From positions 62,001 through 126,000 of the forward strand of contig JAIPBM010000007.1 in the NCBI GenBank assembly GCA_021739695.1: 64,000 nt of DNA. Direction: 5' to 3'. The notes under the pieces are model-generated. The model saw only the letters and a list, made by a program, of their open reading frames with translations. It ran no database searches and was not told the DNA's origin. The DNA is from Flavobacteriales bacterium (GTDB taxonomy: Bacteria; Bacteroidota; Bacteroidia; UBA10329). Numbering within the stretch: position 1 is the first letter of the stretch; every line of letters starts with the position of its first letter. Made by a program: the position numbers and the translations under genes. Shown here piece after piece: positions 60,647-63,662 of the stretch.

Positions 60647-60768
60647 CTACCTCCCATTCCCTTTCCTCATCTCCTCCAGCTGTTTCATCAGCCGTTCCAC
60701 CTCTGCCTGAGAAAGGTTCTCCAATAGATCCTGTGGACTGTGAACAATTGGACCACGCGTTAGCGCTG
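60647..60768 (-). pseudogene. 3' remnant of a duplicated HTH regulator gene
   Basis: About 110 bp match the end of the HTH gene at 61827-62171, roughly 90 percent identical by eye. The frame is kept and ends in TAG at 60647-60649: GPIVHSPQDLLENLSQAEV, then ERLMKQLEEMRKGNGR, versus MRSRK in the intact copy. The HTH part is missing and no start is present, so it is a fragment. Similarity stops at about 60768, 6 bp from the stop codon of the T9SS protein gene. It is either the footprint of a tandem duplication or of a replacement event that put the T9SS gene between the two copies. Confidence 0.75.
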
Positions 60769-60774
60769 AACGAA

Positions 60775-61755
60775 TTACTTCACTAGAAGCTTCTGTCTGA
60801 ACACAGCTTTATCAGTAACCAAAGCTATGATGTAGTTTCCTGCATCAAGCATCGAAACGTCTAAGTTCAAATGAAATGGGACAGATAGAACAACTCTCCC
60901 CGCCATATCATAAACCAAAGTACTGGTTGGTGTTTCTATCCCATCTGGAATTAGGAAACGAACCATGTCAGAAGCCGGATTGGGATAAACATCAATCGGA
61001 CTCTTCACGTATTCACCAACTGCCCCTGGGAAATTATCAAGCCCAATGATCATATTCCTGATCATCCAGCCATCCTTACCGGTTTCCATACTATCGCTTT
61101 CAAAGACAAAGCGAACGTAAACAGTATCCATATTTTCCCAATCACATCCATTAGAACGGCTTTCATTTCCCTGAAAAACAGAAACGTACCAGATAAACTG
61201 AACAGCACTCCAGGTCCATTCCGATTGATTCCCAGAAAAACCATAAACTGTGTCGTGAATGATACTCGGGAAATTGAATATTTCTGTCTCCAGAGGTAGA
61301 TTTAACTGAGACCACGTCCAAGCAATCGATTGCCAATTGACACTATCACAAGAATATTCCAGATAACCACCATCCACCAATGTATCTGTAGAATACTTAT
61401 GTTCAAACGCAATCCACGAGGTTTGATAGGAATAATTATCGTTAGACGGAATCATCACCACCAATTCACTTCTAAGACTATCAGCATAGGAATTAACTGA
61501 ATCGGTTACCCAGCCGATTTCGTTATCAAAAAACGACTTCGATGTGGTTCCATAGACCCATGCATTACTCGAATCACTCGTGTTCACCGAAAACAGGTGC
61601 GGTTCATTGATCGGAGAAATATTGGCAGCAATTCCGCCATCATAACCATCAATTTCAACCAACGGAACATCTCCGGGATTAACGTGATACCATGTTTGGG
61701 ATTTGACTGTTGTAAAACAAAAAACAAAAAGAAATACCGATGTAAGAAGTCTCAT
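60775..61755 (-). CDS. T9SS type A sorting domain-containing secreted protein
   Basis: A 326-residue secreted protein. Signal peptide MRLLTSVFLFVFCFTTVKS-QTW from the ATG at 61755; a TTG six codons earlier (61773) is less likely. The body is rich in Trp, Ser and Asn with beta-sandwich character (SYQTSWIAFEHKYSTDT, VDGGYLEYSCDS, VYVRFVFESDSMETGKDGW), resembling a jelly-roll of the choice-of-anchor/MAM-like type found in Bacteroidota. The last ~80 residues (VYPNPASDMVRFLI, VYDMAGRVVLSV, LDAGNYIIAL, FRQKLLVK) are a T9SS type A domain. It lies between an HTH remnant and the intact HTH gene. Function unknown. Confidence 0.8.
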   Translation of the reverse strand: MRLLTSVFLFVFCFTTVKSQTWYHVNPGDVPLVEIDGYDGGIAANISPINEPHLFSVNTSDSSNAWVYGTTSKSFFDNEIGWVTDSVNSYADSLRSELVVMIPSNDNYSYQTSWIAFEHKYSTDTLVDGGYLEYSCDSVNWQSIAWTWSQLNLPLETEIFNFPSIIHDTVYGFSGNQSEWTWSAVQFIWYVSVFQGNESRSNGCDWENMDTVYVRFVFESDSMETGKDGWMIRNMIIGLDNFPGAVGEYVKSPIDVYPNPASDMVRFLIPDGIETPTSTLVYDMAGRVVLSVPFHLNLDVSMLDAGNYIIALVTDKAVFRQKLLVK

Positions 61756-61826
61756 ACAGTCAAAAATACTCAATCTTAGAACGAGTTGTTATTGCTTGTA
61801 TCTATCTCTTTCGCAAAACCCACCCG

Positions 61827-62171
61827 TCACTTCCGGCTCCTCATCTCCTCCAGCTGTTTCATCAGCCGTTCCACCTCTGCCTGAGAAAGGTTCTCCAATA
61901 GATCCTGTGGACTGTGAACAATCGGACCTCGCATTAGCCCTGCGAGGTAAGACAACTGCTCATTCCCGTCAGGTTCATACCTGAACAATTCATTCGGTGT
62001 GCATTCAAAGGCCTTGCACAGTTTAAACAAATGGTCAATTCCAACCGATTTCGCAGATCCATCAAGTAGTCTTCTAGCCTGTTTGTAGCTGAATCCACGT
62101 TTGGAAAGCCACACGTTTCCAAATTTTACTCCGCGCATTTTTAGTAGTCTATTCACATCCAATCGTATCAT
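61827..62171 (-). CDS. XRE-type helix-turn-helix regulator
   Basis: A 114-residue protein: short N-terminal IRLDVNRLLKMRG, then an HTH of the XRE/Cro fold (WLSKRGFSYKQARRLLDGSA and IDHLFKLCKAFECTPNELF, ~20-70) and a C-terminal helix LENLSQAEVERLMKQLEEM likely to dimerise. The ATG at 62171 is preferred; the frame stays open to a GTG at 62291 but those residues would lie inside the 21-bp repeat array. The gene's 3' end is duplicated at 60647-60768. The repeat array begins 55 bp upstream of the start, so it may be its own operator. Confidence 0.8.
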   Translation of the reverse strand: MIRLDVNRLLKMRGVKFGNVWLSKRGFSYKQARRLLDGSAKSVGIDHLFKLCKAFECTPNELFRYEPDGNEQLSYLAGLMRGPIVHSPQDLLENLSQAEVERLMKQLEEMRSRK

Positions 62172-62225
62172 AACAGTATCATTTAAACACAAATACAACG
62201 GCCCACCCCCTTCTTTAGTGTGCTC

Positions 62226-62456
62226 AACCAACGCTTCCTGTCTCCCAAAAGATGGCACTTGCCTCTTATGGGCCACTCTTTGCCAATCCACTTCTGCTCA
62301 GTGCCTCGCTAAAGACACTTTAAGTCTCACCACAGATTCTTTCTGCCTCCCTACCGATGCTTTCTGCCTCGCCACTCATACTCTTTGCCTCGGAATTTCT
62401 ACTTATTGCCTCGCCACTTCTGCTCAATGCCTGGCCATAGACGTTCTTAGCCTCCC
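62226..62456. repeat. Array of eleven degenerate 21-bp tandem repeats
   Basis: Eleven consecutive 21-bp units without a gap. The 3' half of each unit is well kept, with the core CTTTGCCTCGC (variants TGCCTCCC, TGCCTGGC, AGCCTCCC); the first ~10 bases drift around CAC-n-GATGCT. Units start at 62226, 62247, 62268, 62289, 62310, 62331, 62352, 62373, 62394, 62415 and 62436; a twelfth, mostly decayed unit may begin at 62457. The period is two turns of B-DNA, so the conserved cores face one side of the helix. The array fills the space between the divergent HTH gene and mrp. One plus-strand frame is open through it with a repeated xxxxCLx heptad, but no start or domain supports translation. Confidence 0.85.
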
Positions 62457-62545
62457 CACTTCCACCCGTCACATCATCATTTCGTCATCATCATTACAGT
62501 TCAAATCTTCATCACTTCAGGTCCTCACCACTTCAAACCGATCAC

Positions 62546-62553
62546 TACCTTTG
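62546..62553 (+). promoter_or_regulatory. -7 box (TACCTTTG) of the mrp operon
   Basis: TACCTTTG ends 8 nt before the mrp ATG at 62562, so the mRNA would be nearly leaderless. It lies 90 bp right of the 21-bp repeat array. No -33 TTTG is obvious. Confidence 0.6.
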
Positions 62554-62561
62554 CCTTTAGA

Positions 62562-63662
62562 ATGAATCTAAATAAGCAGAGTGTAGCAGAGGCCCTTCAG
62601 GCCGTAAAGTCGCCAGCTGGTAATGTCAGCATTACAGAAAGTGGCGAATTGAAGAATATTCAAGTTTTCGGAAAAGAGATCGACATTGATCTGGAAGTAA
62701 AGAGTCCAGCACTCAACATTCGGAAGAAACTCGAAAGCGACATCAATACCGTGCTTTTCGAAGCATTTGGTAATGTGACGGTCCGTATAAACATTGCTGC
62801 CAAACCCATTCAGCAAGGACCGCAAGGACCACCCACATTAAGCAAGGTCAAAAACATCATTGCTGTTGCTTCGGGCAAGGGCGGAGTGGGAAAAAGCACC
62901 GTCACAGCCAACTTGTCCGTTGGCCTCGCAAAGCAGGGCTTTAAGGTCGGATTGATAGATGCAGACATCTACGGACCAAGCATGCCGCTGATGTTCGATA
63001 TCGTCAGCGAAAAACCAAAAGTTACGGTCATCGAAGGCAAGCAATACATGCTTCCTGTAGAAAGTTATGGCGTGAAGGTGATGAGCATCGGCTTCTTTTC
63101 CGACCCAACACAGGCCATTGTGTGGCGCGGACCCATGGCTACCAAAGCCCTCAAGCAAATGTTTGGCGATGTGTGGTGGGATGAACTCGACTACCTCCTA
63201 CTCGACCTGCCTCCCGGAACGGGAGATGTGCACTTGACCATTGTGCAAGCAGTTCCTGTAACGGGAGCCGTTGTTGTTAGCACGCCACAGGAAGTTGCAT
63301 TAACGGATGCCCGTAAAGGTGTGGCGATGTTCCGCCTTGATAGCATCAACGTGCCCGTTCTGGGATTGATAGAGAATATGGCGTGGTTCACCCCTGCCGA
63401 ATTGCCCGACAACAAGTATTACATCTTCGGAAAAGATGGCGTAAAAGGCTTGGCAGAACAGATCAATGTTCCTTTACTCGGACAGATTCCGTTGGTTCAG
63501 TCCGTTCGCGAAGCGGGAGACGTAGGAAGACCTGCCCTGCTTCAGGATTCAACCCCGATTGCACAGGTTTTCAAAGACCTTGCCCTTGCTGTCAATCACG
63601 AAGTTGAAAAGCGCAACGCAACACGCGAAGCCACCAAGCGTGTAGAAATCACTACACGATAA
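62562..63662 (+). CDS. mrp: Mrp/NBP35 family Fe-S carrier ATPase
   Basis: A 366-residue P-loop protein that carries or inserts Fe-S clusters. Residues ~5-80 are a MIP18/DUF59 domain (SVAEALQAVKSPAGNVSI); the deviant Walker A ASGKGGVGKST is at ~103-113, Walker B DYLLLDLPPGTGDVHLT at ~210, and IDADIYGPSMP at ~130. The usual CxxC cluster-binding pair before YYIFG is absent: the sequence reads FTPAELPDNKYYIFG, as in other Bacteroidota. The gene is followed 10 bp later by a NifU-C domain gene that also acts in Fe-S assembly, so a small Fe-S operon is likely. Confidence 0.93.
   Translation: MNLNKQSVAEALQAVKSPAGNVSITESGELKNIQVFGKEIDIDLEVKSPALNIRKKLESDINTVLFEAFGNVTVRINIAAKPIQQGPQGPPTLSKVKNIIAVASGKGGVGKSTVTANLSVGLAKQGFKVGLIDADIYGPSMPLMFDIVSEKPKVTVIEGKQYMLPVESYGVKVMSIGFFSDPTQAIVWRGPMATKALKQMFGDVWWDELDYLLLDLPPGTGDVHLTIVQAVPVTGAVVVSTPQEVALTDARKGVAMFRLDSINVPVLGLIENMAWFTPAELPDNKYYIFGKDGVKGLAEQINVPLLGQIPLVQSVREAGDVGRPALLQDSTPIAQVFKDLALAVNHEVEKRNATREATKRVEITTR

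Follow-up and report, generated by a model that had tools for sequence, protein, structure and literature searches.

In the window, i.e., the whole stretch of 64,000 nucleotides that was analyzed, an array of tandem repeats is surrounded by the genes for an XRE regulator, the Mrp ATPase, and a T9SS-sorted protein (60775-61773). The features of the locus are given in Table 1.

Table 1. Features of the repeat array and its surroundings, in window coordinates.
Feature	Position	Strand	Remarks
XRE regulator, 114 aa, Pfam HTH_26 (PF13443)	61827..62171	-	presumed array binder
Gap between the array and the XRE start	62172..62225	-	XRE promoter presumed inside; inferred from position only
Array, eleven 21-bp units, core GTGGCGAGGCA	62226..62456	-	other half drifting
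Decayed continuation of the array towards mrp, same register	62457..62523	-	units score below zero in the matrix
TACCTTTG box, fits TAnnTTTG	62546..62553	+	8 nt before the mrp start codon
mrp (Mrp/NUBPL P-loop ATPase)	62562..63662	+	divergent neighbor, outside the conserved pair

An earlier note on this DNA had described eleven uninterrupted 21-bp units, and this description was borne out. The units are contiguous over 62226-62456, with a match fraction of 0.56 at lag 21 and of 0.54 at lags 42 and 63. When 2000 dinucleotide shuffles were analyzed as a control, taking the best lag between 8 and 63, the match fraction was 0.35 ± 0.016 and never exceeded 0.446. The array is the strongest periodic stretch in the whole window, and no other comes near; the output of Tandem Repeats Finder contained only the best 3.5 units (62365-62437). 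With a leave-one-out matrix, nine of the eleven units scored 8 to 22 bits, the 99.9th percentile of the window being 3.9, and the units at 62247 and 62268 were found to be decayed (-0.2 and -2.4 bits, respectively). In the direction of mrp, the same register could be traced further, though more weakly, as far as about 62523. The division of the units into a kept core and a drifting half, also part of the earlier description, was retained, with the core better written as TGCCTCGC(CAC), which on the XRE strand reads GTGGCGAGGCA. The array does adjoin the XRE gene as claimed, but 54 bp, and not 55, separate it from the start codon at 62171. A search with the array sequence through the genome of this organism (4.24 Mb, 53 contigs) matched only the array itself, and the pattern TGCCTC-N15-TGCCTC was found outside the array at chance level. 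A translated search with the array found other 21-bp arrays, with E-values that rest on low-complexity similarity, and was taken as a lead only. Two repeat classes were considered and discarded: the 7-bp-type degenerate repeats common in Bacteroidota, and CRISPR arrays, which have near-identical repeats with unique spacers, whereas the units in the window are contiguous and half-conserved.

The box in front of mrp agrees with the Bacteroidota -7 box consensus, TAnnTTTG (PMC9723704), and an identical or similar box was observed at the corresponding place before mrp in same-genus genomes. Together with the T9SS sorting domain encoded in the window, a promoter box of this type marks the genome as Bacteroidota-like. 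On the other side of the array, a 112-nt direct repeat of the XRE 3' end, 94% identical, was found at 60657-60768 and 61831-61942, flanking the gene for the T9SS-sorted protein; this repeat is the trace of a rearrangement, duplication, or insertion.

The XRE protein matched PF13443 with 37.5 bits (cut-off of 22), and HTH_26 was its sole Pfam match, while NCBIfam and PADLOC provided no name for it. A structure model built from the single sequence had moderate confidence (pLDDT 74.7; the other four models, 40-47), and its fold matched mostly Cro/C1-type proteins, e.g., P22 c2, C.AhdI, and HigA, all with weak E-values. The likeness to PDB entry 8q86, which is SaPI2 Stl (PMC11846896), is that of a generic HTH only, and this candidate was set aside. 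Searches for the protein in PHROGs gave weak generic repressor matches only, and those in phages gave weak partial HTH matches only. Plasmids gave no DNA match and, when the protein of a relative was used, only short partial HTH matches.

Relatives were then gathered by XRE protein search alone, blind to repeats, and for the 600 bp upstream of each XRE gene the best of all periods from 8 to 40 was determined. The first set, obtained from genus, phylum-wide, and class-wide samples, contained 42 loci, 39 of them distinct, that were clear family members. The best upstream period was exactly 21 at all 39 distinct loci, with a match of 0.52-0.88, and no 21-bp signal as strong as this was found downstream. 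Generic XRE genes from the search margin served as a control, and period 21 was best upstream in none of 18; a nineteenth gene had too little upstream DNA and was left out. To obtain the second set, we scanned the GTDB species, each represented by a single genome, with a sub-alignment; an initial contig scan with P0001 alone as the query had given no matches. It contained 80 loci, 78 of them with enough upstream DNA, a few of which probably repeat first-set genomes. The best upstream period was 21 in 67 of the 78, with a match of at least 0.50 in 61, and none reached 0.50 at this period downstream of the XRE gene. In the other 11, 21 was not the best period; no array was seen at L295, L296, and L322, and a family member in a Pyrinomonadaceae MAG (L290) had a clear 20-bp array upstream of position 2501. 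The second set covered Bacteroidota, Acidobacteriota, and Ignavibacteria, some of them by the record labels Acidobacteria and Ignavibacteria, and included the cultured strains Flavobacterium aquatile LMG 4008 (two loci), F. psychrotolerans, F. gelidilacus, F. tegetincola, and Epilithonimonas arachidiradicis.

All first-set arrays are situated 5' of the respective XRE gene, at a distance of about 0-200 bp from its start codon, and family arrays hold about 5-19 units. A module of this kind, defined by an array directly 5' of the XRE gene, is present in the window and at 38 other distinct loci. Several different modules can be found per genome, and the repeat sequence varies between loci. Genes with two fused XRE domains (L035, L043, L049, and L039) have 21-bp arrays before them too. 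Since nearly every relative of the XRE protein, in three phyla, has its own 21-bp array before its gene, the array very probably represents a row of docking sites for this regulator.

The array sequence also followed the protein. Across the 39 loci, the similarity of array consensuses rose with XRE identity (Mantel r = 0.55), and none of 5000 permutations was as high. When the reverse-complement similarity was subtracted from the same-strand similarity, a measure that controls for base composition, the correlation with XRE identity was 0.36, and again 0 of 5000 permutations were as high. Twenty-one pairs had XREs with an identity of at least 0.70; among these, the core correlation was 0.66-0.98 and the spacer correlation -0.21 to 0.62, bar one near-identical pair, and this difference between core and spacer among close XREs points to selection. 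At XRE identities from 0.40 to 0.66, core and spacer were often alike and the contrast was mixed; shared descent is, besides co-evolution, a contributor to the core correlation. In agreement, the window array and the array of a 36%-identical XRE paralogue in the same genome have a common GTGGCGAGGC core. In the earlier note, the array had been taken for a multivalent site at which the neighboring XRE protein binds, 21 bp being two helical turns, and this proposal is strongly supported by the comparison, given that 21 was the best period at 39 of 39 and 67 of 78 loci, that generic XRE genes behaved otherwise, and that the core tracks the protein.

The analysis of unit anatomy over the 39 loci placed the conservation in one contiguous half of ~10 bp. 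The 21-bp harmonic of unit conservation was 0.211 versus 0.100 ± 0.014, and a weaker 10.5-bp component of 0.136 was also detected. No dyad symmetry was found in the window array (p = 0.27), and only 2 of the 39 family arrays showed it at p < 0.05. Half-unit conservation, the 10.5-bp term, and the lack of palindromy fit an asymmetric protein site that recurs in head-to-tail orientation at intervals of two helical turns. An array of palindromic dimer operators was rejected because the units as a class have no dyad symmetry.

Taken together, these data make it likely that the array consists of operators for the adjacent XRE regulator, about eleven in number, arranged head to tail and two helical turns apart, with autoregulation as the most likely function. 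Each 21-bp unit would contain one asymmetric recognition core of ~10 bp, to be bound by the XRE protein, and, as 21 bp amount to two turns of B-DNA, the bound copies would sit on the same face of the helix and touch their neighbors. These contacts would result in a cooperative, switch-like occupancy that is steep with XRE concentration. That all first-set members have the array 5' of their XRE gene suggests that its most likely role is the control of the XRE gene's own promoter. A divergent gene on the far side may be controlled too, this being a partner gene at some other loci and, by accident of insertion, mrp here. In the window, the array extends at its far end towards the box before mrp, and thus mrp could come under its control.

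We consider it unlikely that the array is first of all a DNA-level landmark (centromere-like, iteron-like, or nucleoid-organizing) to which the XRE protein binds, with transcription control being secondary. Direct, asymmetric repeats spaced by two turns do recall iterons, and up to 19 units are seemingly more than simple repression needs; however, a landmark accords poorly with a sequence that varies by locus, with several different modules per genome, and with a constant placement 5' of the XRE gene, like a regulatory region. An iteron origin was discarded as well, as neither a Rep initiator or origin among the array neighbors nor a plasmid DNA match was seen.

As another possibility, the divergent gene, i.e., the partner elsewhere and mrp here, might be the owner of the array, with another regulator binding the array and the XRE gene being only a frequent neighbor. 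The partners form a multicopy family of about 310-400 aa, and about 15 of 21 assessable copies have 21-bp arrays upstream, including eight array-bearing copies with no member of this XRE family nearby, as expected if the divergent gene were the owner. Against this, the array is present at 39 of 39 XRE loci, whereas a conserved divergent partner accompanies 12 of about 38 loci in the first set and 5 of 80 loci in the second, and the core tracks the XRE protein, so that ownership by the divergent gene seems very unlikely. The partner proteins start with MTDxQSNxLDMY, some have a CarboxypepD_reg C-terminus, and their genes are divergent from the 21-bp arrays; examples are L033:177-1142, L041:930-1868, and L190-L214, with up to nine copies in genome G011. 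With regard to mrp, neither the array nor the XRE gene was found upstream of it in the seven same-genus genomes that cover its start, and in one same-genus locus (L004) a gene resembling that of the T9SS-sorted protein directly adjoins mrp. Both being missing at mrp in relatives, the XRE gene and the array came or went together, and the array is apparently not ancestral at this position. Absence from close relatives had been named in the earlier note as an observation that would refute its interpretation; it was indeed observed at mrp, where the XRE gene is missing too, whereas elsewhere in related genomes gene and array occur together.

Slippage is a common origin of tandem direct repeats in non-coding DNA, yet a neutral minisatellite with no function is highly improbable here. 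The orthologous arrays L063, L270, L272, and L303 agree in the order of their units and have kept the register with respect to the start codon, the hosts of this one locus being Epilithonimonas, Chryseobacterium, a Flavobacteriaceae bacterium, and genome G366; a fifth orthologous sequence, L267, has a single-base gap within the array. Orthologous units of L063, L270, and L272 were 87% identical, versus 51% between units of one array. The ordered units and the higher orthologous identity therefore indicate old, individually inherited sites and not a mutable minisatellite. Moreover, 17 non-coding arrays of period 21, about one per 95 kb, were found in 1.62 Mb scanned of the genome that contains the window, and none of period 19, 20, 22, or 23. 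Near-absence of neighboring periods in the same genome, persistence of period 21 in three phyla, the tie to one gene family, and the inheritance of unit order across genera all oppose a neutral origin by slippage. The other reading of the earlier note, a remnant of a translated heptad repeat, is just as improbable, as is a live repeat of this kind, and both were abandoned: 21 bp do equal seven codons and one plus frame is open across the array (62101-62565), but unit conservation has no 3-bp component (p = 0.74), a fully open frame occurs in 13 of 39 arrays versus 13.7 expected after column permutation, so that a coding tandem repeat is not needed to account for it, and one family array (L290) has a period of 20.

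Arrays of this period were also found apart from the XRE family. In the genome of the window, three 21-bp arrays (L147, L177, and L154) had no XRE gene seen nearby, and these, together with the arrays at partner genes devoid of the XRE family, indicate that the array class is wider than the XRE protein. In a second XRE family, five of the six members from the genus are preceded by 21-bp arrays of palindromic units of the CTATG...CATAG type; this family has a coiled-coil-like tail (L159:5059-5762, L184-L187, and L189), with CTCTGT...ACAGAG units in G007. Other 21-bp arrays lie near a LytTR protein (above the Pfam cut-off), an AraC protein (clear), and a LuxR-like protein (below the cut-off). 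Two arrays in the genome of the window, L171:6348-6672 and L180:4745-5069, are closely similar (match up to 0.93), as if copied recently. The regions L154:1248-1478 and L113 are seemingly corresponding intergenic regions with 21-bp arrays unrelated in sequence, and the XRE gene is present there in G004 and absent from the genome of the window. A broader reading, which we put forward tentatively as somewhat less likely than not to hold, is that 21-bp operator arrays are a general regulatory architecture of Bacteroidota and some other phyla, used by several unrelated regulator families with private sequence codes, in which a phased filament would create a sharp switch. The families would be this XRE family, the second one with palindromic units, and possibly the LuxR-like, LytTR, and AraC proteins.

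No published description of such arrays was found in the open-access literature that was searched. If the XRE protein binds the array, this would be a widespread autoregulatory device based on many private sites spaced by two turns, and not on two or three strong palindromes, and this one protein family would be a natural source of dozens of regulator-operator pairs that differ in their codes. The recognition of DNA by the protein, the cooperativity, and the role of helical phasing could then be tested directly, and the modules might be developed into orthogonal switches for use in Bacteroidota, a phylum with few genetic parts.

Autoregulators of the Cro/C1 (XRE) type, e.g., P22 c2, C.AhdI, and HigA, use two or three palindromic operators. 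The module described here has the same DNA-binding fold and a regulator gene beside the operators, but it differs in having about 5-19 units, which as a class are not palindromic. Iterons of plasmid origins are direct, asymmetric units of roughly two turns, and their initiator is often autoregulated. The units of the window array are likewise direct, asymmetric, and two turns long; however, the protein encoded next to them is an XRE regulator and not a Rep initiator. A further parallel is offered by BldC of Streptomyces, a MerR-like winged-helix protein that forms head-to-tail oligomers on direct repeats in variable unit number, with the consensus AATTXXXX(C) of about one helical turn (PMC5859096). 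Membership in the BldC family (MerR-like winged-HTH, about 68 aa) was rejected, as the window protein matches only HTH_26 in Pfam. The two systems differ in the protein, which here is of the XRE/HTH_26 type, in the two-turn spacing, and in the position of the array next to the regulator's own gene. They share asymmetric sites, direct repeats, a variable number of units, and, as is to be expected for the XRE protein, multimeric binding, and the XRE-array module may work like BldC.
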